Source: a virus
Direction: 5' to 3' (one strand)
Virus record (IMG/VR): IMGVR_UViG_3300032223_000613
Span: 1 to 39,068 of that record
Length of the DNA stretch: 39,068 bases
The notes under the pieces were generated by a model that searched no databases, was not told the origin of the DNA, and saw only the letters and a list, made by a program, of their open reading frames with translations. Position 1 is the first letter of the stretch. Each line of letters opens with the position of its first letter. Of the stretch, positions 264-39,068 are shown in pieces. A program made the position numbers and the translations under genes.

Positions 264-899
264 TTACTTCTTGAGGGGCACCGAATTCTTAACGATAATC
301 GCTAGAATCTTTGAGATTTTCTCAAGGTTGGCCGTATCGACTGCCTTTAATTGCTCGGCCTTAAAGCCCTGTAATGCAGCGAGCGTAACGGCGAGAATCG
401 AATCAACATCCCGCTTGCTCTCCTTCTTTAATTCGCCAGTGCCCTTCTTGGACTTAGGCGAGATTTTAGGCGAGAGGGCTTCCACCGCTTCTAGGCTCTC
501 GGTGGCTTCGATTATGGCATCTGCGCCTGTGCTGCCGTTCTTGGTGTTGAAGCGCACCGCCAGTTTGATGAGGTCGGACACCGACATATTCTCTGCTTCG
601 GGGTGCTTCGAGATGATGAGCGAGCAGGTTACGAAGTGTTGAGCGTGTGAAGGTCGAAGGGTAGGCGCGGTGCCAGTTGCTTCGATTGCTTGAGCGATTG
701 AGGCTTTCACCTGCGCGACAGTAATCCCGCTATCCGCCATCTTCTGCGCTGTCTCAACGATGAAGCCCAATTCCAATTCCTTCGAGCCAGACGAGATGAG
801 CGCGTAATGCTCGGAGATGGAATCCACCGCCTGCACCTTAATCTTTGGTGCTGTTGCTGTTGGTGCCTTTGGTGCCTTTGCCTTTGGTGCTGTTGCCAT
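264..899 (-). CDS. Ala/Lys-rich protein of unknown function next to the putative origin
   Basis: A 211-residue protein I do not recognise. The first 20 residues are a low-complexity Ala-Pro-Lys tail (repeats of APK) like those of proteins that bind DNA non-specifically. The rest is predicted mostly helical, and residues about 145-165 are a second Lys/Ser-rich stretch. ATG 899 follows GAAAGG at a workable distance, and a copy of the 15-bp inverted repeat lies 24 bases upstream. A strong terminator follows the gene. It is the only gene facing the repeat-rich 900-1695 region from this side, so an origin-binding or DNA-organising role is possible, but this is inference from position and composition only. 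Confidence 0.75.
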   Translation of the reverse strand: MATAPKAKAPKAPTATAPKIKVQAVDSISEHYALISSGSKELELGFIVETAQKMADSGITVAQVKASIAQAIEATGTAPTLRPSHAQHFVTCSLIISKHPEAENMSVSDLIKLAVRFNTKNGSTGADAIIEATESLEAVEALSPKISPKSKKGTGELKKESKRDVDSILAVTLAALQGFKAEQLKAVDTANLEKISKILAIIVKNSVPLKK

Positions 900-31278: not shown

Positions 31279-31601
31279 ACAGACCAACATCAGTTAAAAT
31301 CTTTGGACAAAAGTACAAGGTAAAGTATGTCCCAGTCCTAGAAGATGAGGGTACCGACCTCCTCGGCTTAACTGATTCAAAGACCAATACCATTACTGTC
31401 GTAAGCACTTTGCAAGAAGACAAGATGGCTAGTGTTCTTATGCACGAGATAACTCATGCAATCATTGATGAATCAACGATGTCACTTCGTCGTAGATTTG
31501 GCCTAGAAGAAGTATGCGATATCGTCGGATATCACGTAACCAATGTACTAAGAGATAACCCATCCATCGTAGAATGGATATTAAAGGAGGTGGAAGAATG
31601 A
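31266..31601 (+). CDS. ImmA/IrrE-like zinc metallopeptidase
   Basis: 111 residues, GTG start 31266 with AGAGG upstream, overlapping the previous gene by 13 bases. HEITHAIID (about 59-67) is the HExxH zinc motif. Small peptidases of this type cleave repressors in other phages and mobile elements; the target here is unknown. Confidence 0.75.
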   Translation: MAGLNRPTSVKIFGQKYKVKYVPVLEDEGTDLLGLTDSKTNTITVVSTLQEDKMASVLMHEITHAIIDESTMSLRRRFGLEEVCDIVGYHVTNVLRDNPSIVEWILKEVEE

Positions 31602-31879
31602 AAATCTTCGGTCCATATAAAGGTAGCAAACAGAATGGTGGCAGACCAATCTATGTTATCAAAAAGAAAAAGAAGGACGGAACTACTGAGACAACCTCAA
31701 CCAACAAGGCTCGTCTTGATTTCAAGAAGGCTACTGGAAAGAAGTTGTCTAGGTCTACCGATATAGACCACAAGGATAACGGCGGTCGCGCCGGTCGTGA
31801 TGGAATTAAAAACCTTCAACCTATGTCTCATAGCAAGAACGTTGCTAAAGAGGACAAGAGACGAGCAAAGAAAAAGTGA
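31598..31879 (+). CDS. HNH endonuclease-like protein
   Basis: 93 residues from ATG 31598, which overlaps the previous stop (ATGA) and follows AAAGGAGG; an earlier ATG at 31574 lies upstream of that site. DIDHKDNGGRAGRDGIKNLQ followed by PMSHSKN matches the HNH metal-finger core (DH, N, N). The flanks are Lys-rich. It could be a replication or packaging nicking enzyme or a free-standing homing nuclease. Confidence 0.78.
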   Translation: MKIFGPYKGSKQNGGRPIYVIKKKKKDGTTETTSTNKARLDFKKATGKKLSRSTDIDHKDNGGRAGRDGIKNLQPMSHSKNVAKEDKRRAKKK

Positions 31880-32619
31880 AAACAATTGTCTGTGTATCCG
31901 ACTTACAGATACCTTATCACGATAAGCGTGCTGTTGCCAACCTAGCAAACTTTATCAAGGCTTACAAGCCAACTGAGGTTGTATCTGTTGGAGACGAGAT
32001 GGATATGCAGACCATCTCTAAATGGGCCAAGGGAACGCCGTTAGAATACGAACGCTCCATTGGTAAGGATAGGGATGAGACAACAAGGGTACTCGAGCAA
32101 CTCAAGGTAAAGCACATAATCCGTTCTAACCATACTGACCGGCTGTTCAATACAGTTATGATGCGCTCTCCTGGCTTGCTCGGGTTGCCTGAATTAGAAC
32201 TACCAGAGTTCCTCCGGCTCGACCAAATTGGTGCTACATACCACGAGAAGCCCTATGAATTGGCTCCAAACTGGTTGCTTATGCACGGCGATGAAGGCTC
32301 AATGAACGCCACAGGAGGACTTACAGCATTAGGTTTGGCTAAGCGTACCGGCAAGTCAGTAGTGTGCGGTCACACCCATAGAATGGGTCTCGCACATCAC
32401 ACCCAGGCTTATGGAACAACACCAACACAAACTATTTGGGGTATGGAAGTCGGCAATCTTATGGATTACCGCAAGGCTAAGTACATCAAGGGTGGCCTAT
32501 TCACTTGGCAACAAGGCTTCGGTATCCTGTATGTCGATGGTCGTACAGTTATTCCATCCGTAATTCCTATTGCGCGAGATGGCTCGTTCATTGTGGAGGG
32601 CAAGGTGTGGGGTCGATGA
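31876..32619 (+). CDS. Calcineurin-like metallophosphoesterase
   Basis: 247 residues, GTG start 31876 in a GTGA overlap. Metal ligands are visible in SDLQIPYHD (8-16), VGDEMD (38-43), SNHTDR (84-89), MHGDE (136-140) and GHTHRMG (164-170), a full set. Phage enzymes of this class act on DNA, RNA or nucleotides; substrate unknown. Overlaps the next gene by ATGA. Confidence 0.85.
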   Translation: MKTIVCVSDLQIPYHDKRAVANLANFIKAYKPTEVVSVGDEMDMQTISKWAKGTPLEYERSIGKDRDETTRVLEQLKVKHIIRSNHTDRLFNTVMMRSPGLLGLPELELPEFLRLDQIGATYHEKPYELAPNWLLMHGDEGSMNATGGLTALGLAKRTGKSVVCGHTHRMGLAHHTQAYGTTPTQTIWGMEVGNLMDYRKAKYIKGGLFTWQQGFGILYVDGRTVIPSVIPIARDGSFIVEGKVWGR

Positions 32620-33278
32620 TGGATTGGAATCGCATTGAACCTTGGGACTATGTAGTTAACGGCGTAGCATCTGAGTACCATAAGAAATATGATATGGTAG
32701 AGATAGAAGATATACGCCAAGCACTATACCAATGGTTCCTCGAACACCCTAACAAGTTGGATACGTGGGAAGCAATCGGCCATCGTGATGCTAAGAACTT
32801 AATCTATCGCTCGCTTCGTAACGAAGCATTAGATTACTGTCAGCGTTGGAAGGCCAAGTCAGTTGGCTATGAAATATCGGACAATCATTACTACGACCCT
32901 GAAATGGTCGAGGCAATCCTGCCTTCTGTATTGCGTGGTGAGATTGGTGTCGCCCAGAAACTCAACCTTGGCCGGCCAGGAAATCAGCCAGCACCTTCGG
33001 AAGGTGGCAATATTACTGTGATGATGATTGAGATTGACTACGGCTATTGGAAACTATCTAAAGATGATAGACGTATCCTATTCCTCAAGTATGCTGAGTC
33101 GATGCCGTTGGCAGAGATTGCTAATGAATTAGAATTGGGTTCAGAGGATGCAGCAAGGATGCGGTGCAATCGCGCTATCCGTAGGCTCATCAACAAGATT
33201 GGTGGATACAAGCCCTACAAAGACGAAGACACCTCTGCTCAAGAATCTGAGTCAGAGGTGTCGGTTGTGGAAGACTGA
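32616..33278 (+). CDS. Sigma-70-like transcription factor
   Basis: 220 residues from ATG 32616 (ATGA overlap; ATG 32619 also possible). The helix-turn-helix at about 165-200 (SMPLAEIANELELGSEDAAR followed by MRCNRAIRRL) is a region 4 pattern and binds -35 DNA. The N-terminal half (EDIRQALYQWFLEH, then EALDYCQRW) is helical like region 2. It could steer host RNA polymerase to late phage genes. The end is acidic and overlaps the convergent 33239 gene by 40 bases. Confidence 0.72.
   Translation: MMDWNRIEPWDYVVNGVASEYHKKYDMVEIEDIRQALYQWFLEHPNKLDTWEAIGHRDAKNLIYRSLRNEALDYCQRWKAKSVGYEISDNHYYDPEMVEAILPSVLRGEIGVAQKLNLGRPGNQPAPSEGGNITVMMIEIDYGYWKLSKDDRRILFLKYAESMPLAEIANELELGSEDAARMRCNRAIRRLINKIGGYKPYKDEDTSAQESESEVSVVED
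33228..33262. terminator. Hairpin inside the convergent gene overlap
   Basis: GACACCTCTG (33228-33237) pairs with CAGAGGTGTC (33253-33262); an inner CTCA (33238-33241) pairs with TGAG (33248-33251), leaving one bulged T. It lies where the sigma-like gene and the - strand nuclease gene overlap tail to tail. There is no U tract, but it is well placed to block both polymerases. Confidence 0.65.
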
Positions 33279-33649
33279 TGCTTCCATCGCATATACTCCA
33301 TAATTTCATTAGGAGTAATTAAGTATCCTGCGGATGGGTTAGGTTCGATGTCACAACTTATCGACCTACCCCATTCCTGTATTGCTTTCAGGAGTACATC
33401 TCTAGCAACGATAAGAACTACATCGCCCAGTACTAAAGCCCAATGAGTGGCCTCAGATACAGTAATGCCTGAGGGTTCCCAACTCTTTGTACTGTTGTAC
33501 CAACAATGAGTTTCGATGTATACGTTGCCGGTTTCTTTCCATTGCCTATCTGTTTTAACTTCGACTGTATCTATGGTAAGTAGGCGAGCAACAGCAGACT
33601 CGCCCACTAGACCATCACGAAAGTCTATATCCCAATTTGAGTTAGACAT
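33239..33649 (-). CDS. PD-(D/E)XK endonuclease-like protein
   Basis: 136 residues. GLVGE (E17), D27 and VEVKTD (E30, K32) form a small nuclease core like those of phage and restriction endonucleases; NVYIETHCW follows. It is the last gene of the - strand block. ATG 33649 lacks a good ribosome site; the 15-bp inverted repeat is nine bases upstream. Third PD-(D/E)XK protein of this phage. Confidence 0.75.
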   Translation of the reverse strand: MSNSNWDIDFRDGLVGESAVARLLTIDTVEVKTDRQWKETGNVYIETHCWYNSTKSWEPSGITVSEATHWALVLGDVVLIVARDVLLKAIQEWGRSISCDIEPNPSAGYLITPNEIMEYMRWKHQSSTTDTSDSDS

Positions 33650-33651
33650 AT

Positions 33652-33780
33652 TTAGTCCGTACGAAATTCGTACGAGTCATCCTCCAGTTCTTTAATGTAC
33701 TGGTCAATCTTATCCAACGATTCCATAATAGACTTGATGTACTTATGTCTTAGCCTTGCTTCCTCTTTCGAGTATTCCAA
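33652..33780 (-). CDS. Small charged protein, TTG start
   Basis: 42 residues from TTG 33780, chosen because AGGAGG lies five bases upstream and the upstream gene stops two bases before. It is a helical charged peptide (KSIMESLDKIDQYIKELEDD). The last residues YEFRT are encoded by a copy of the 15-bp inverted repeat. Longer readings overlap the FmdB-like gene and are unlikely. Confidence 0.6.
   Translation of the reverse strand: MEYSKEEARLRHKYIKSIMESLDKIDQYIKELEDDSYEFRTD
33659..33673. promoter_or_regulatory. 15-bp inverted repeat
   Basis: Perfect copy (GTACGAAATTCGTAC as read on the + strand), with 8-bp arms. It covers the end of the 42-residue gene and lies nine bases before the start of the nuclease gene at 33649. 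Confidence 0.8.
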
Positions 33781-33781
33781 A

Positions 33782-33964
33782 CTATCCTCCTGTCGAGTAA
33801 AACCCTGTACCTTTGAAATGCACAGGCGTTGCGCTGAATACCCTAATTGTATCATAACTCAGGCACTTATTGCAATCTGCTGGCTCATCTCTGCTATCTA
33901 CGTTACGGCTGTGAGTAGTTACCGCATTACATACATTGCATTGGTACTCATATGTTGGTGACAC
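33782..33964 (-). CDS. FmdB-type zinc ribbon protein
   Basis: 60 residues, GTG start 33964 with AGGAGG upstream. TYEYQCNVC (4-12) and PADCNKC are the two CxxC pairs of the FmdB family, small zinc-ribbon proteins thought to act in regulation. It overlaps the upstream gene by 17 bases. Confidence 0.8.
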   Translation of the reverse strand: MSPTYEYQCNVCNAVTTHSRNVDSRDEPADCNKCLSYDTIRVFSATPVHFKGTGFYSTGG

Positions 33965-34160
33965 TCGTTCCTCCTAGTCTGCTACGTCGTTGTGCTTCTA
34001 CCATATCAAGAATCCTGGAATAGTTATCAAGGTTCTGTGCTATATTGCGAGATAGTTCCCTGGCCACTAGTCGCTTATAACCGAACAGCGTTAGTGTTTC
34101 CTTGATGTTCTCGATGTACGGCGTATCTCTGTATGGGTGTTCTTTCCTAGGCGTTGCCAT
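33948..34160 (-). CDS. Small hypothetical helical protein
   Basis: 70 residues from ATG 34160 (GAGGAGG just upstream; ATG 34172 would place the ribosome site inside the gene). It is basic and helical (LVARELSRNIAQNLDNYSRI). Unknown function. Coupled to both neighbours by overlap. Confidence 0.7.
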   Translation of the reverse strand: MATPRKEHPYRDTPYIENIKETLTLFGYKRLVARELSRNIAQNLDNYSRILDMVEAQRRSRLGGTSVTNI

Positions 34161-34335
34161 ATTCCTCCTCATCTATCGGTGTCGGTGCAGTAGTAATTGT
34201 ACCACACTCGGTACACTTCTGCGTTAAATTGTACCAGCCCACTAGCCTAGTTTCTGGGTCCCACATAACGTTGATATTGAATATGCGACAACCGCAGATA
34301 CAGGCTAGTGTAGGGAATCCTCTCAAGTCATCCAT
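34147..34335 (-). CDS. Zinc-ribbon protein
   Basis: 62 residues from ATG 34335 in a TAATG overlap (GTG 34344 is an alternative). CICGCR (12-17) and KCTECG give two Cys pairs. Ends in an acidic tail. No family assigned. Confidence 0.68.
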   Translation of the reverse strand: MDDLRGFPTLACICGCRIFNINVMWDPETRLVGWYNLTQKCTECGTITTAPTPIDEEEYGNA

Positions 34336-34721
34336 TAGTACCACCCGTGTTTCTTATGGTAGTACCAAGCATTGCAGGGTGTCTTGTATCTATAGATGAT
34401 GTACGAGATACCTCTGTCTATCTGCATAGTTGCCGGAACCTTTGGATTAAGGTCAAGCAGTTGGGGTATCCCGCCAGCATTCTTTCCCATTACCTTCATC
34501 TTATTGTAAGCATTCGCTCTCCAATGGGATTCGTTAGTCCACAATTTATCTAGACATACCCATTGTTTATCTGCCCAAGCAAGAACCTTATCTCTTGCAT
34601 ATGCTTTGCTATCTGCTACTGTCCATACAGTTTGCTTAGGCTTCTCTGTTCCTACTTTGTTTACTCCCATTACTACGAATGCAATGATGAGTACTAACAA
34701 TAACGAGCGTACGAATTTCAT
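34335..34721 (-). CDS. Secreted lytic transglycosylase (SLT-like)
   Basis: 128 residues from ATG 34721, set by AGGAGA upstream and an ATGA overlap with the whiB-like gene. The N-terminus (MKFVRSLLLVLIIAFVVMGV) is a signal or membrane anchor. CLDKLWTNESHWRANAYN holds the catalytic Glu, then GGIPQLL and RYKTPCNAWYY, the pattern of actinobacterial lysozyme-like SLT domains. It is far from the lysis cassette, so it may act on the wall early. Its codons 1-5 (MKFVR) lie in the 15-bp inverted repeat. Confidence 0.85.
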   Translation of the reverse strand: MKFVRSLLLVLIIAFVVMGVNKVGTEKPKQTVWTVADSKAYARDKVLAWADKQWVCLDKLWTNESHWRANAYNKMKVMGKNAGGIPQLLDLNPKVPATMQIDRGISYIIYRYKTPCNAWYYHKKHGWY

Positions 34722-34723
34722 AC
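34709..34723. promoter_or_regulatory. 15-bp inverted repeat containing a start codon
   Basis: Variant GTACGAATTTCATAC; the G-to-A change creates, on the - strand, the ATG of the SLT gene and the TGA of the whiB-like gene. Confidence 0.65.
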
Positions 34724-35071
34724 ATCTCCTTTCAGCCAAGGTCTAACTCTATTAAGGAATGCCAATGCCTTGTGCATATCTCTACCTAGATTAGAGTTCT
34801 CTGTTAACTCCCTATCGAATCCGTCAGGGAATCTAAGTTCTACTCTTTCGCCAGCAAGCAAGCCACCCCATATACCATTTGCTATGTTTTCATTTCTCAT
34901 ACCTTCCTGTAAGCATTCTGATTTAGATGGGCAAGAGTTGCAGATACCCACCGCCGTTTGGATTTCATTTGCTATATTCAATTTTGCAACCCGAGATGCC
35001 CGACCATTTGGACTTTCCGGAAACCAAAGGTCAGGGTTATCGTGATTGGTACAATCTCCTGTAATTTTCAT
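34718..35071 (-). CDS. WhiB-family iron-sulphur regulator
   Basis: 117 residues. C7, C44, C47 and C53 (C..CxxCx5C) bind a 4Fe-4S cluster, and GIWGGLLAGER (66-76) is the WhiB turn. The family is found in Actinobacteria and their phages, so this sets the host. In mycobacteriophage TM4 the WhiB protein blocks host WhiB2 and causes superinfection exclusion; a like role is possible. ATG 35071 overlaps the stop of the upstream membrane-gene frame (ATGA). Confidence 0.92.
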   Translation of the reverse strand: MKITGDCTNHDNPDLWFPESPNGRASRVAKLNIANEIQTAVGICNSCPSKSECLQEGMRNENIANGIWGGLLAGERVELRFPDGFDRELTENSNLGRDMHKALAFLNRVRPWLKGDV

Positions 35072-35225
35072 ATTAGTCCGATGAGATAAAATACGATAAG
35101 CAGGGCTACAATAATTGGAAACGCTAGGTTAAATGCTAGCGAAGCAAATATGTATAAGAATATAACCTTGCCTAAAAGCAGTTATCCACGCCCCTTTCAT
35201 ATCGGTTTTCCTGTACGAATTTCAT
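35068..35225 (-). pseudogene. Small membrane protein gene interrupted by a one-base frame change
   Basis: ATG 35225 overlaps the upstream stop (ATGA) and opens a frame of 17 codons (MKFVQENRYERGV...) ending at TAG. The -1 frame just before this stop then runs as a strong membrane segment (FASLAFNLAFPIIVALLIVF) and stops at 35068 in a perfect ATGA overlap with the whiB-like gene. Adding one T to the TTTT run (35174-35177) would join them into a 52-residue protein. Either a true mutation, a sequence error or frameshifting. Confidence 0.6.
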
Positions 35226-35227
35226 AC
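35213..35227. promoter_or_regulatory. 15-bp inverted repeat containing a start codon
   Basis: Variant GTACGAATTTCATAC, the same change as at 34709. On the - strand it holds the TGA of the zinc-ribbon gene and ATG 35225. Confidence 0.65.
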
Positions 35228-35386
35228 CTCAACCTCAATCTCTGTTTCACAGATAGGGCATTCGCCTGCACCCATAGAACCTTCTGCATAGATGGTAACG
35301 TTCTCCATATAATCATCACACTCCGGACATAGCACAGTCATCTCTAACTCTACCATATCCACGCCCGAGCCTTGCCAGTAACTCAT
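35222..35386 (-). CDS. Small zinc-ribbon protein
   Basis: 54 residues from ATG 35386 (GGGGGTGG upstream, ATGA overlap). LCPECD and ECPICE are two CxxC pairs about 30 residues apart. The end is acidic (TEIEVEV). No known family. Confidence 0.75.
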   Translation of the reverse strand: MSYWQGSGVDMVELEMTVLCPECDDYMENVTIYAEGSMGAGECPICETEIEVEV

Positions 35387-35811
35387 ACACCACCCCCAAC
35401 TGTAGCGTCTACCTTTGATATTGTAGTAGTTGATTGTCCGCATACGATACACAGTCCCACGCTAAATTCGTGGGCATAACTATTCTCAAGAGTTATTTCA
35501 GTTAGCGTGTCGCACATAGTGCAGACCGCAGATACCTTAGTCCACTTGATTTCCTTTGGCACAGAATTATCTACCAATACGGAATCTAGTACATACTCGA
35601 ACTCCGGCCGGAATGTTTCAATCGGATACCCACCATACCATTCGATACGATACCCATCATCCTCATCCCAATGTAGGCTTCCATTATATGCCATACTGTT
35701 ATCGTCAACGAGAGTAAAGCGGTGAACCCACGAAGTTTCTCGACGATTGAATTCGTCTATTACTTCGAACTTCTTAAGGAACTCGCCCTTGCTAATTTCT
35801 ATGTCAGTCAT
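35383..35811 (-). CDS. Hypothetical protein with C-terminal zinc ribbon
   Basis: 142 residues. Aromatic-rich beta N-terminal part (YRIEWYGGYPIETFRPEFEY) then CTMC and CIVC pairs near 97-123. ATG 35811 follows AGGAGC; it overlaps the upstream gene by 8 bases. Unknown function. Confidence 0.75.
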   Translation of the reverse strand: MTDIEISKGEFLKKFEVIDEFNRRETSWVHRFTLVDDNSMAYNGSLHWDEDDGYRIEWYGGYPIETFRPEFEYVLDSVLVDNSVPKEIKWTKVSAVCTMCDTLTEITLENSYAHEFSVGLCIVCGQSTTTISKVDATVGGGV

Positions 35812-36076
35812 CTCGTGCTCCTAACGCTGATAGTTGTAGTCGGATTTTATTTACTGTACGAATTTCGTACAGGTCAGGATTGCTGGTGAGCATCTGTAAG
35901 TAATCTACAAGTGTCTCACGAATCTCCTCAATGGCAAGCCAGTTGAGATACACACCGCCCTCATCCCACTTAGAATTTTTGCGGATGACCGAGATACTAT
36001 TCTCGTTCATTGCACTCCACTTGGCGATAGCGGTTGCAAGTGTATCCTTACTTCGAGAAGTCGAAGAGTCCGTCAT
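35804..36076 (-). CDS. Small hypothetical helical protein
   Basis: 90 residues from ATG 36076, set by GGAGG upstream and a 29-base overlap with the amidotransferase gene. A Ser/Thr-rich start is followed by helices (LAIEEIRETLVDYLQML). Residues YEIRT near the C-terminus come from a perfect copy of the 15-bp inverted repeat. Function unknown; linked to the amidoligase pair. Confidence 0.7.
   Translation of the reverse strand: MTDSSTSRSKDTLATAIAKWSAMNENSISVIRKNSKWDEGGVYLNWLAIEEIRETLVDYLQMLTSNPDLYEIRTVNKIRLQLSALGARDD
35856..35870. promoter_or_regulatory. 15-bp inverted repeat, 9-bp arms
   Basis: CTGTACGAA-T-TTCGTACAG counting the flanks. It is inside the 35804 gene and 44 bases before the start of the 35811 gene. 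Confidence 0.8.
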
Positions 36077-36887
36077 AGTAGTAACCTCCATTCGAGTGTC
36101 GTTTTGTTTCTTTGTACTTGTCTTGTTCAGGTGTCCAGCACAGGCAGGTGTCTTCGACGATACCATCGCAATCGAAGCAGGATAGGCACATCTCGCACCA
36201 GTAAGGGTTAGCATCTTCGTAGGCTACCGATAGGCACGAAGGGCACTCATACACAAGGTCTTCGCCATAGGTATCATTTAGCACAGCAGGTCGAGAGGGT
36301 GAGCCGATGTACTTAGCCCACGAACTCTCTTTGTATGAGTCGTTGCTCCACCAAATACCGAAGTTATCCCAATGTCCGGCACTCTCGTTGATGATGTAGC
36401 ACTCGTGCTTGGCATCAGGGTTGAGCGTGAGGATAGCAATCTTGCTACCCGAAGCCCACTTGCTGATTATCTTGTAGATATTTTCATTGTCTAGGGCAGT
36501 CACGCCACCCATAGCAGGCAGGGTATCTTCTGCGAAGACACGCGTATCGCTACGCTTATCGTTAGCGTGGATATCGATATCGAGAATACCATTGTGAGCA
36601 AGATAGGTATCTGAATCAGTACCGACCTTGAACGGATGGCAGTTATCCTCATTCTTTACGCCGTGAGTTGCGTATCGTGCGTGGAAGATAGCGTACCCAG
36701 TAGGGTATTGCTTACGCACTTCTAGGAACTCATTGACTACCTTCTTGGCAGACATACCGCGACCAGTAATGATACGGCCGTCTGCTACTACGGCATAGCC
36801 GAAGCCGTGCGGATTATTGCAGGAAGCGCACTCTAAATCTTTGCGCTTGGGTGTGGAGTTAGGACTTGCTACCAGTAATAAACACAT
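36048..36887 (-). CDS. Class II glutamine amidotransferase-like protein with zinc tail
   Basis: 279 residues. Cys2 directly after the initiator Met is the expected N-terminal nucleophile. HARYATHG (69-76), CHPF (83-86) and AHNG (97-100) are the glutamine-binding and oxyanion motifs of the Ntn-hydrolase type that frees ammonia from glutamine. After about residue 215 a Cys-rich tail (CPSC, CEMC, CFDC, CLC) should bind zinc. It follows the amidoligase gene by 9 bases, which suggests ammonia or amide chemistry between the two. ATG 36887 follows AGGAGC. Confidence 0.85.
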   Translation of the reverse strand: MCLLLVASPNSTPKRKDLECASCNNPHGFGYAVVADGRIITGRGMSAKKVVNEFLEVRKQYPTGYAIFHARYATHGVKNEDNCHPFKVGTDSDTYLAHNGILDIDIHANDKRSDTRVFAEDTLPAMGGVTALDNENIYKIISKWASGSKIAILTLNPDAKHECYIINESAGHWDNFGIWWSNDSYKESSWAKYIGSPSRPAVLNDTYGEDLVYECPSCLSVAYEDANPYWCEMCLSCFDCDGIVEDTCLCWTPEQDKYKETKRHSNGGYYYDGLFDFSK

Positions 36888-36896
36888 AGTGTGCTC

Positions 36897-38078
36897 CTAT
36901 TCTGAGTCAGACGCTACGAACAATTTGTCCAAGCGTGTTAGTAGGTGTGAGTAGATATCCTTGTTATCGTAGATATACTGTACGAAATTCATACGCTCTA
37001 ACGCACCATTTCGTACTTCGGATACACTAAGTCTGCGAGTGTACTCAACGCTGGCGTGCGCCAAGTCAAGCGCAGACTTAATTGTATCGCCATTTACTGT
37101 GCCCCTAAAGATACGCATCTCTAGAGTATGTCGGTTTTGCGTGTTGACGGCAGAGTACCTATTCGTTCGGTCGCCCCGCTCGATTTTATCCTTAAAGGAT
37201 TTATACAATTTATCCTTCTCGGTATCGTACCTCTGCACATCTTCGAAGGTAGCCCAGCGAGATGACTCTCGACCAGCAAGGCGAGCATAGAACTCCTGAT
37301 TACCATAGATTAGTTGCAGGAATCGGTGCATATGCGAGCCATTATTAAAGCCAGCACGAGAGATATGGATATGCAGACCACAAGTACCAGTACCCCACGC
37401 CCTCATCTTCATCTCATCACGCAGGAAAGCAATAGTGCTCCACAGTTGATGCGCTTGATTCTTATAGAAATCGTGGGTCATTGGGTGGGTGACAATCTCG
37501 AATCCACATTGGAGCGAGCCGTCAGACTTGAGGTAGGCTAGATTATTCTCCTCTAAGGTATAGGCATATCGGGCTGCTTCGTTCATAGTATTCCGGTCGC
37601 CACGCGGTGCTTCGGTCTCAATCTCGATACCAAAGTAAAGAGGCCCTTCTCCGTGAAAGATAGGGTCAGGCCGGTACGAATAGTCGTGAATCACACGCTC
37701 ATTATCGGAATCACAGCGTTCGCATCCATCACGATTGAGTTCGTCACAGTTATCACACCATTCGTAGTTCTCTACGCAGTTCTCACAGATGTAGGTATTT
37801 CTATCGGTGACATAATTACTATCGCCAGTATGCCGATACTCGCAATGGTCGCACCAACTAGAGTATTCGTCTGCGCAATCTGTACACCAGAACGCCCAGT
37901 CGCCGTCAATGCCGTAGAATGTTTCGTTCTGCGAGAATACATCTTCACAGCGACCACAGATTTGCATACAATCTGCGCAGATATTCGAGCCATCGACTGT
38001 GATGTAGTTATCATCGCCGACTTTAACAGAGCAATCGGTGCATACGATTACTTCGTCATCTTCGATTACTTCGTTCAT
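36897..38078 (-). CDS. Putative amidoligase with N-terminal zinc domains
   Basis: 393 residues. The first about 122 residues hold eight CxxC pairs (13/16, 34/37, 41/44, 65/68, 76/79, 98/101, 108/111, 119/122), enough for four zinc sites. From about 149 the motifs FGIEIETE, SDGSLQCGFEIVTHPM, GLHIHISRAG and TLEMRIFRGT are those of the amidoligase_2 family (glutamine-synthetase-like fold), which joins amines to carboxyl groups using ATP. Substrate unknown. ATG 38078 follows GGAAAGG; a promoter and the 15-bp inverted repeat lie upstream. Confidence 0.87.
   Translation of the reverse strand: MNEVIEDDEVIVCTDCSVKVGDDNYITVDGSNICADCMQICGRCEDVFSQNETFYGIDGDWAFWCTDCADEYSSWCDHCEYRHTGDSNYVTDRNTYICENCVENYEWCDNCDELNRDGCERCDSDNERVIHDYSYRPDPIFHGEGPLYFGIEIETEAPRGDRNTMNEAARYAYTLEENNLAYLKSDGSLQCGFEIVTHPMTHDFYKNQAHQLWSTIAFLRDEMKMRAWGTGTCGLHIHISRAGFNNGSHMHRFLQLIYGNQEFYARLAGRESSRWATFEDVQRYDTEKDKLYKSFKDKIERGDRTNRYSAVNTQNRHTLEMRIFRGTVNGDTIKSALDLAHASVEYTRRLSVSEVRNGALERMNFVQYIYDNKDIYSHLLTRLDKLFVASDSE
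36980..36994. repeat. 15-bp inverted repeat variant inside the amidoligase gene
   Basis: GTACGAAATTCATAC; on the - strand it encodes MNFVQ near the C-terminus of the amidoligase. It could have arisen by chance or serve as an internal start. Confidence 0.45.
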
Positions 38079-38103
38079 CTTACCTTTCCTTTCGATAAAG
38101 TCT

Positions 38104-38118
38104 GTACGAATTTCGTAC
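38104..38118. promoter_or_regulatory. 15-bp inverted repeat before the amidoligase gene
   Basis: Perfect copy, 25 bases before ATG 38078 and about 40 bases downstream of the inferred transcription start, so it lies in the mRNA leader. Confidence 0.85.
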
Positions 38119-38163
38119 GGACAGTTGGAGCATTGGTGCTGGGTAGTGCTTGATTATGGGATA

Positions 38164-38192
38164 ATACTACACGATTATGGCGCGATTGTCAA
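38164..38192 (-). promoter_or_regulatory. Promoter of the amidoligase operon
   Basis: On the - strand TTGACA (38192-38187), 17-base spacer, TAGTAT (38169-38164). The -10 box includes the TAG stop of the 55-residue gene. Transcription should start near 38157. Confidence 0.75.
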
Positions 38193-38334
38193 TAATCGCG
38201 TCAGCAATCTTGGAGCGCAGGATTGCGCTATACTCGGCGAGAGCCTTAAAGCCATTGCGCGTATGGTTTTCTTCGGCATTGCGTAGTGCTTGCCGAATAA
38301 AGTCCCACTCCTTATCGGTGAGGTCAATTACCAT
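38167..38334 (-). CDS. 55-residue hypothetical protein
   Basis: ATG 38334 overlaps the stop of the upstream gene (ATGGTAA). The product is helical with a hydrophobic face (WDFIRQALRNAEENHTRNGF and LAEYSAILRSKIADAIID). No family recognised. Its stop lies in the -10 box of the amidoligase promoter. Confidence 0.72.
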   Translation of the reverse strand: MVIDLTDKEWDFIRQALRNAEENHTRNGFKALAEYSAILRSKIADAIIDNRAIIV

Positions 38335-38480
38335 CGAGTTCCGGCTTCACGAATCTTTCGGCGATACACGCGCACATCATCTTCCAAATCCAAGATACGA
38401 AAGACGGCGAAAGTGATAACCGAAATGCTCGTAAGTAGAGCAATGGTTACAGCAAATAGAATTGCCGGTGAGATATACAT
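38328..38480 (-). CDS. Small membrane protein
   Basis: 50 residues from ATG 38480 (GGAAAG upstream). One membrane segment (AILFAVTIALLTSISVITFA, 6-25) then a charged tail (DLEDDVRVYRRKIREAG). The 15-bp inverted repeat is 22 bases upstream. An upstream GTG in the same frame would translate the tRNA-like sequence and is rejected. Confidence 0.75.
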   Translation of the reverse strand: MYISPAILFAVTIALLTSISVITFAVFRILDLEDDVRVYRRKIREAGTRW

Positions 38481-38502
38481 TTCTTTCCAATCTGTAAATA
38501 CT

Positions 38503-38517
38503 GTACGAATTTCGTAC
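38503..38517. promoter_or_regulatory. 15-bp inverted repeat, 9-bp arms
   Basis: CTGTACGAA-T-TTCGTACAG, 22 bases before ATG 38480 and 5 bases from the tRNA-like sequence. Confidence 0.85.
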
Positions 38518-38521
38518 AGAG

Positions 38522-38567
38522 TGCCCGCCACAGGAGTCGAACCTGTGACCACGCGACCGGCGCGGGC
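38522..38567 (-). ncRNA. tRNA-like 3' half (T arm and acceptor)
   Basis: On the - strand ACAGG-TTCGACT-CCTGT is a perfect T stem and a canonical 7-base T loop, followed by GGCGGGC, the 3' side of an acceptor stem, and A as discriminator. A partner GCCCGC lies only 15 bases before the T stem, so D and anticodon arms are missing. No CCA is encoded. It may be a remnant, an old attachment core or a minimal tRNA-like RNA. Confidence 0.7.
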
Positions 38568-38579
38568 TATCCAGCAGGG

Positions 38580-38735
38580 TTACTCAGCCCAATCTGAGTC
38601 TTCTTCTACATCATCAAAGTCATCATCGAACAGGGACTCGTCAATTAAAGGCTCAAGACCTTCGGATTCGACAAGGGCGACAATTTCCTCATCAGTAAGT
38701 GAGTCATCATCAAAGAAATCGAAATCGTCTAGCAT
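38580..38735 (-). CDS. Extremely acidic 51-residue protein
   Basis: From ATG 38735 in a TAATG overlap with the upstream gene. 24 of 51 residues are Asp or Glu (for example FDFFDDDSLTDEE) and there is no Lys, Arg or His. Such charge is typical of DNA mimics that block nucleases or DNA-binding proteins, though size and sequence match no family I know. Confidence 0.75.
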   Translation of the reverse strand: MLDDFDFFDDDSLTDEEIVALVESEGLEPLIDESLFDDDFDDVEEDSDWAE

Positions 38736-38887
38736 TATAGAACTCCGTTCAATCGTAGGTATTCGGCATCGACTTGCTTGGGTGCTGAATCCTCAGCGAT
38801 ATTACGAAGCACTTGCTCGTGGTTAAAATCGTGAAGTTCTGCAACTAACGCCTCAAGCGTATCGAGCAGGCTCTTTGACTTAGCCAT
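38735..38887 (-). CDS. 50-residue hypothetical protein
   Basis: ATG 38887 has GGAGAG seven bases upstream and the inverted repeat 26 bases upstream. The product is helical (SLLDTLEALVAELHDF) and is coupled to the acidic protein gene by TAATG, so they may act as a pair. Confidence 0.72.
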   Translation of the reverse strand: MAKSKSLLDTLEALVAELHDFNHEQVLRNIAEDSAPKQVDAEYLRLNGVL

Positions 38888-38913
38888 TTAATCACTCTCC
38901 TTTATTCTGAGCC

Positions 38914-38928
38914 GTACGAATTTCGTAC
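38914..38928. promoter_or_regulatory. 15-bp inverted repeat before the 38887 gene
   Basis: Perfect copy with 8-bp arms (CGTACGAA, T, TTCGTACG), 26 bases before ATG 38887. It is the first copy of the series on the - strand after the circle junction. Confidence 0.85.
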
Positions 38929-38945: not shown

Positions 38946-39068
38946 CAATGGCCGGTCTGAACCTCAACCATTAAGACAAGTCTACATCAAATAGGGGGGA
39001 AAGGCAAGCATCTCCGGTAAGTATTTCCGCGACTCGATTCCGGTTCGGCTTGGTGAACGCCGGCCGGC
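38946..39068. repeat. Terminal direct repeat, right copy
   Basis: Exact second copy of bases 1-123. Joining the copies makes a circle of 38945 bases in which the - strand accessory genes run without a break from 38887 down to 33239, and the 264-899 gene lies just upstream of them. Confidence 0.95.

Follow-up and report, generated by a model that had tools for sequence, protein, structure and literature searches.

The window analysed here is the whole of IMG/VR virus record IMGVR_UViG_3300032223_000613 (positions 1–39,068), a member of a freshwater virus family infecting actinobacteria, and its subject is a palindrome repeated through one segment of accessory genes together with the gene at 264–899 (minus strand) whose product may bind it. 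The repeat, GTACGAAWTTCGTAC / GTACGAATTTCGTAC, occurs at exactly 10 sites in the 39,068 bases at up to three mismatches (the raw scan count is 20, each site matching on both strands), while shuffled versions of the window gave a mean of 0.71 chance matches of the 15-bp motif and a maximum of 6.

Ten palindromes in one accessory segment

A direct terminal repeat of 123 bp (1–123 = 38946–39068) indicates that the junction of the resulting 38,945-bp circle is real, and the ten sites form one uninterrupted run of 6,210 bp across it, within a minus-strand block. In transcript order they lie at 924, 181, 38914, 38503, 38104, 36980, 35856, 35213, 34709 and 33659. A first-pass annotation of the letters alone had listed these ten coordinates, all of them correctly, and they are the only sites at this threshold; its remark that the plus-strand blocks lack the motif also holds, with zero copies at up to three mismatches in the 32.7 kb of virion and replication blocks (939–33658). 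The 15-bp inverted repeat that it described is real, and we refine it to an underlying palindrome, GTACGAA-N-TTCGTAC, which some copies extend by an outer CT/AG. The features in transcript order, palindromes being given without a strand, are as follows.

924–938: palindrome, ending 24 nt upstream of the start codon (ATG) of gene 264–899
264–899, minus strand: gene for the candidate palindrome-binding regulator, 211 amino acids (proposed from presence pattern, covariation, tree and out-of-sample prediction)
181–195: palindrome with two deviations, about 30 nt downstream of the intrinsic terminator behind gene 264–899
38914–38928: palindrome, ending 26 nt before the ATG of a 50-amino-acid gene (38735–38887, minus strand)
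38503–38517: palindrome, 22 nt before the ATG of a small membrane-protein gene (38328–38480, minus strand) and directly behind a tRNA-like element
38164–38192, minus strand: putative sigma70-like promoter by consensus match, TTGACA-17-TAGTAT, its −10 ending 45 nt upstream of the palindrome at 38104
38104–38118: palindrome, 25 nt before the ATG of an amidoligase-like gene (36897–38078, minus strand)
36980–36994: palindrome with one arm deviation, lying within the amidoligase-like gene at its 3′ end; the glutamine-amidotransferase gene (36048–36887, minus strand) follows after about 90 nt
35856–35870: palindrome in the 3′ end of gene 35804–36214 (minus strand; YEIRT), ending 44 nt before the next ATG
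35213–35227: palindrome with one arm deviation, holding the stop TGA of the preceding gene and an overlapping ATG (MKFV)
34709–34723: palindrome with one arm deviation, holding the ATG of gene 34335–34721 (minus strand; MKFV...)
33659–33673: palindrome in the 3′ end of gene 33652–33855 (minus strand; YEFRT), just before gene 33239–33649 (minus strand)

Most of what had been noted about placement is borne out. Four sites (924, 38104, 38503 and 38914) were said to stand 22–26 bases before a start codon and do so, at 24, 25, 22 and 26 nt with a Shine-Dalgarno sequence between; the motif supplies the MKFV start codon at 34709 and both ATG and TGA at 35213, and the copies at 35856 and 33659 fall in the gene ends encoding YEIRT and YEFRT. 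The general description of a repeat at gene starts fails for 181, which lies downstream of a terminator.

A candidate regulator that changes with the palindrome

Related viruses carry palindromes of their own. At up to two mismatches GTACGAATTTCGTAC is absent from the 22 records that share the capsid region of the window, and de novo motif search found several relatives with a different palindrome at the same place: GTCGGGYTARCCCGAC, GTCGGCYRGCCGAC and, in contigs L111 and L112, GTACGATNATCGTAC. A motif scan of IMG/VR returned 11 contigs, with single copies apart from L111 and L112, the source of the GTACGATNATCGTAC class. After fetching 80 contigs via the neighbouring glutamine-amidotransferase gene, we count about 70 related contigs with their own repeated palindrome in the corresponding accessory segment, at 3–11 copies each. 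These fall into about 20 sequence classes of 14–16 bp, three of which rest on 3–4 copies only. Across 21 genomes the 7–11 sites of each are confined to one arc of 4.1–6.9 kb, and palindromes of a foreign class are practically absent within a genome (5 hits over 90 motif pairs). The first-pass annotation had named equal motif density in the virion block as an outcome that would count against it; that block holds no copies in the window and none in 20 relatives.

We compared every gene family shared by the genomes with palindrome status. The family of gene 264–899 occurs in 20/21 genomes with a palindrome and in 0/6 without one, and a profile built from 49 members detected nothing in the palindrome-free genomes. 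The single palindrome-bearing genome without a relative may be an artefact, because the last 550 bases of its contig lay outside the sequence examined. Similarity among the 264–899 proteins also predicts which palindrome a genome carries (area under the curve, AUC, 0.986; nearest-neighbour accuracy 0.96). The next best predictor is a sigma-like factor (AUC 0.898, accuracy 0.63), and the capsid protein reaches 0.49. The binders suggested from the letters alone, namely sigma-like, WhiB and FmdB-like proteins, thus covary far less with the motif (AUC 0.898, 0.802 and 0.690) and we set them aside. An HNH-like protein of 101 amino acids (31574–31879, plus strand) has a similar presence pattern (19/21 palindrome-bearing, 0/6 palindrome-free genomes); we rejected it as the binder, as it shows no covariation with the motif (AUC 0.548).

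Trees and unused genomes point the same way. On maximum-likelihood trees of 56 contigs in 16 classes (quick trees, with long branches present), the motif label changes 15 times along the 264–899 tree, the minimum possible, versus 25 and 23 times for two genes of the same segment. We then took 28 unused contigs fetched by the 264–899 protein alone. In 28/28 the commonest of the known palindromes was the one that the closest protein already known had predicted, with at least two copies in 26 and one copy in each of the other two, although the contigs are not all independent because the regulators of several are identical to ones already known.

Closely related genomes suggest how such a change proceeds. 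L169 and L179 share 91–95% DNA identity across most of the region compared, and 94% identity between their glutamine amidotransferases. Even so, the two regulators have no similarity detectable by blastp, and seven orthologous palindromes differ, GTCGGC type versus TCCGTTT type. At an eighth site (L169:8553) the flanks are nearly identical and the sequence is GTCCGCTTTGACGGAC in L169 versus GTCCGTTTAAACGGAC in L179; we read the L169 copy as the probable decayed operator of a former specificity class. A similar replacement separates L125 and L139, where it is limited to about 20 bp at two of the compared sites.

Together, these comparisons strongly support a system in which each phage would pair a single type of regulator with a single type of palindrome, the two being exchanged together. 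They also lend strong support to one proposal of the first-pass annotation, an operator for a single regulator of all accessory cassettes, and they add a candidate, 264–899, that the annotation had not linked to the motif.

The candidate regulator has a family of its own. Members are about 195–240 amino acids long and all-alpha, with Lys/Ala/Pro-rich ends. Pfam, PHROG and PDB sequence searches with 49 members gave no meaningful match, the window protein is absent from 50,697 annotated phage records, and one subgroup has no relatives among 84,980 prokaryote species, each represented by one genome. We propose the product, from these sequence comparisons, as the founder of a new protein family with a regulatory role. 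AlphaFold models of two members have a mean predicted local distance difference test score (pLDDT) of 83 and 87.

Placement, direction and rival explanations

Placement was studied over 387 non-redundant palindrome sites. A start codon with a ribosome site follows 10–29 nt downstream at 157/387, with control positions flat, so the spacing that the first-pass annotation had asked to see in relatives is conserved there. A sigma70-like promoter match of at least 10/12, with its −10 ending 25–45 nt upstream, occurs at 42/387 sites versus about 5/2040 controls, and many start-linked palindromes would therefore lie in the 5′ leader, about 20–40 nt past the transcription start. In palindromes of odd length, the centre base on the transcript strand is A rather than T in a ratio of 100:6 at start-linked sites and is A in 78/104 of the others; this bias implies that the element has a direction. 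A palindrome lies immediately upstream of the regulator gene itself in 17/20 genomes, and one lies immediately downstream of it in 18/20. Two simpler identities were tried and dropped: an embedded −10 promoter, since TATAAT/GATAAT occurs in the A+T-rich classes, is missing from the G+C-rich ones, and the detected promoters lie 25–45 nt upstream; and a known tRNA or Rfam element, none being found at the gathering threshold.

We consider it likely that the palindromes serve as operators for a sequence-specific DNA-binding regulator encoded by the phage, the 264–899 product, which would probably act as a stoperator-like block to transcription. The product would bind as a homodimer, as the site is symmetric, and would control its own gene, given the palindrome 24 nt before its ATG and the upstream copy in most genomes. 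Bound some 20–40 nt downstream of transcription starts, it would block elongation in the manner of a stoperator, because the sites lie downstream of promoters and are oriented with transcription as those of L5 are (PMC9283540). Such a block would time or limit accessory gene expression during infection. The sign of the effect is the least certain step, and we lean only slightly toward repression over activation. Tyrosine integrase (PF00589) is absent from 28 genomes, and both the resolvase-type recombinase (PF00239) and the ParA-type ATPase (AAA_31, PF13614) from 21; since no such gene was found, we prefer control of timing or dosage in lytic growth, or exclusion among phages that co-infect a cell, to lysogeny.

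Several observations weigh against this assignment. We infer binding of the palindromes by the 264–899 product from comparison, and phylogenetic relatedness inflates all covariation measures, although equally for every gene compared. In Foldseek searches neither model matched a known DNA-binding protein significantly, and there were few distant pairs of the same class from which covariation at the level of residues could be read. The orientation bias of the centre base is unexpected for a plain symmetric dimer. Finally, a sizeable share of sites lies away from any start codon, a recognisable promoter accompanies a minority, and promoter matches across the whole segment of the window are at chance level.

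The same regulator and operators might instead activate, either by recruiting or freeing RNA polymerase (for example with the sigma-like factor at 32505–33278) or by preventing premature termination in the leader. That these phages encode a sigma-like factor, that the sites have a fixed direction, and that palindrome-free relatives retain strong promoters directly before the corresponding genes are all consistent with activation, but most recognisable promoters lie upstream of the site and would place the protein downstream of the start point, which is unusual for an activator; we hold it to be unlikely, though worth keeping in view. An element acting as RNA, that is a leader hairpin on which 264–899 or a nuclease acts to control translation or stability, would account for the many sites in leaders just before the ribosome site and for the strand-specific centre base. 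If pairing were maintained, G-to-A and T-to-C changes on the transcript should be fewer than C-to-T and A-to-G changes, since the latter two leave G-U pairs. Over 370 non-redundant sites, however, arm transitions comprise 40 that keep pairing versus 52 that break it, and at start-linked sites with the optional outer base removed there are 6 versus 9, plus 6 transversions. In the window, each of the four deviations in the arms would give a G-U pair in the minus-strand transcript, a pattern that favours a hairpin and is misleading taken alone. Furthermore, the site at 181 follows a terminator, and the shortest palindromes would give a stem of 5 pairs only. Because arm variants fail to keep RNA pairing, we favour binding to DNA, reject the hairpin and regard an RNA element as improbable. 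Of the mRNA leader element proposed in the first-pass annotation, then, the leader position stands for most start-linked copies and the base-paired structure does not; what still speaks most for a role linked to transcription or RNA is the direction of the centre base.

Sites for partition, condensation or replication, with 264–899 as a centromere- or nucleoid-type protein in a KorB/ParB-like role and placement at gene starts secondary, would fit the clustering of several sites around gene 264–899 and the basic, Lys-rich ends of its product. ParB and SopB DNA-binding domains are the weak best fold matches of one model, but at E 0.8 and above they are non-significant and they are missing from the top of the other model's list; on these models we do not class the product as ParB-like. 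The lack of a ParA-type ATPase and the strong placement before start codons and behind promoters also speak against partition, which we think quite improbable. Least credible of all, and in our view barely worth entertaining, are short homology for exchanging small genes, as had been suggested from the letters alone, and targets for an enzyme of homing or restriction type, for example the HNH-like protein. The small genes of the segment do vary among relatives, and the HNH-like gene follows palindrome status much as the regulator does. Its product lacks covariation with the motif, however, and homology for recombination needs neither symmetry, nor spacing to start codons, nor replacement of about 20 bp inside conserved leaders; it also leaves unexplained why a whole palindrome set switches with one protein.

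Neighbouring features and comparison with known systems

The segment contains other recurrent features. The tRNA-like element in front of the palindrome at 38503 (38522–38567, minus strand) is single-copy and 43–48 nt long, with counterparts at L120:8157, L127:7924 and L140:8084, among others. It comprises a 6-bp acceptor-like stem, a 13–19-nt linker without D or anticodon arms, and a 5-bp T arm with a TTCRANT/TGCRANT loop; the pattern occurs in 58/82 contigs, and in most of these a palindrome follows it after 4–26 nt. ARAGORN does not call it, and its Rfam tRNA score is 13.4 bits only. Changes on both sides were seen in 9/11 pairs, though pairing was required in selection and the percentage paired is thus built in. 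A hairpin just upstream of start-linked palindromes (54/173 versus 233/1536 controls) is partly this same element.

The genes at 36048–38078 (minus strand), putatively a class II glutamine amidotransferase and a Cys-rich amidoligase as named from their sequences, are kept together in the accessory segment of relatives; an amidoligase-like query against IMG/VR found no relatives. The sigma-like factor (32505–33278, plus strand; PHROG sigma-K) lies beside the segment and is present in 33/36 relatives, with some copies seemingly split (G030, G043). In the palindrome-free L095 (G005) and L102 (G008), TTGACA-N17-TATACT promoters stand directly before the same genes, including upstream of the amidoligase-like gene. 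An 11-bp tandem repeat, CGAATCYTTCT, is present six-fold at 1163–1250 between the regulator and terminase genes.

The nearest named relatives of the window, at 72% over the scaffold and capsid region, are the Planktophila phages LanE43-AprE7 and AprF5 (OX376640, OX376641), which are about 39 kb long and both encode WhiB and a sigma factor (PMC10202952). These cultured phages differ from the window in lacking both the motif (at up to two mismatches) and a relative of 264–899 (profile search with 49 members).

The stoperators and immunity repressor of Cluster A mycobacteriophages (L5, TipsytheTRex) offer a close parallel, with several oriented sites, one at the regulator's own gene, and site and protein diverging together (PMC6550527, PMC9283540). 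All of these traits recur here: each genome has several sites, putatively for a single phage protein, they follow the direction of transcription, one lies at the regulator gene, and site and protein diverge jointly between relatives. The leader position is also compatible with the Cluster A block to elongation. The Cluster A sites are asymmetric 13-mers to which a monomer binds; a genome holds more than twenty, spread along its length, and the phages are temperate. Here, 7–11 palindromes of 14–16 bp lie within one 4.1–6.9-kb segment, the regulator has no detectable relation to the Rep helix-turn-helix family or to known families, and no integrase or parABS-type gene is detectable. Occurrences of GATGAGTGTCAAG, the L5-type stoperator consensus, are no higher than chance.

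Cluster K mycobacteriophages carry start-associated sequences (SAS) of 13 bp and, beside them, extended start-associated sequences (ESAS), which are inverted repeats with imperfect 17-bp arms and a spacer; the ESAS stand before non-structural gene starts and differ between subclusters, and the authors who described them thought RNA pairing unlikely and suggested a DNA-binding protein whose specificity varies (PMC3203893). The likeness to mycobacteriophage start-associated sequences drawn in the first-pass annotation is thus apt for layout, as here too inverted repeats precede starts and the consensus differs between subgroups. It does not extend to sequence, the 13-bp SAS GGGATAGGAGCCC having 0 matches at up to two mismatches. 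Unlike ESAS, the arms here are 6–8 bp with little or no spacer, and there are about 20 classes and a candidate binding protein. Lambdoid CI and Cro likewise recognise palindromic operators as dimeric phage regulators with specificity types, and their operators cluster at one or two promoters of the lysogeny switch. The present sites differ in being spread one per accessory gene across the segment, in genomes where no lysogeny genes were found. In the literature searched, the coverage of which is incomplete, we found no description of such a system in freshwater actinophages.

It has long been asked how a regulator and some ten operators can change together, and natural examples are scarce. The genomes compared here, otherwise closely related, hold dozens of natural regulator–operator pairs, and in one phage seven sites appear to be new while an eighth is an old one in decay. 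Should binding be confirmed, these phages would supply a ready-made set of mutually non-interfering regulators, their control circuits could be read directly from metagenomes, and we would have a first way into gene regulation in phages whose hosts are abundant freshwater actinobacteria; it would then also have to be asked why so many immunity-like specificities persist in phages that lack an integrase. A wider reading, plausible but somewhat short of an even chance in our judgement, is that the family represents a new viral superfamily of DNA-binding regulators with about 20 largely orthogonal codes in a single phage family, its sets of 7–11 operators rewritten about 20 bp at a time within conserved leaders upon regulator exchange, under competition or exclusion between co-infecting integrase-less phages. 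If that is true, these genomes would hold a natural library of orthogonal regulators and operators.

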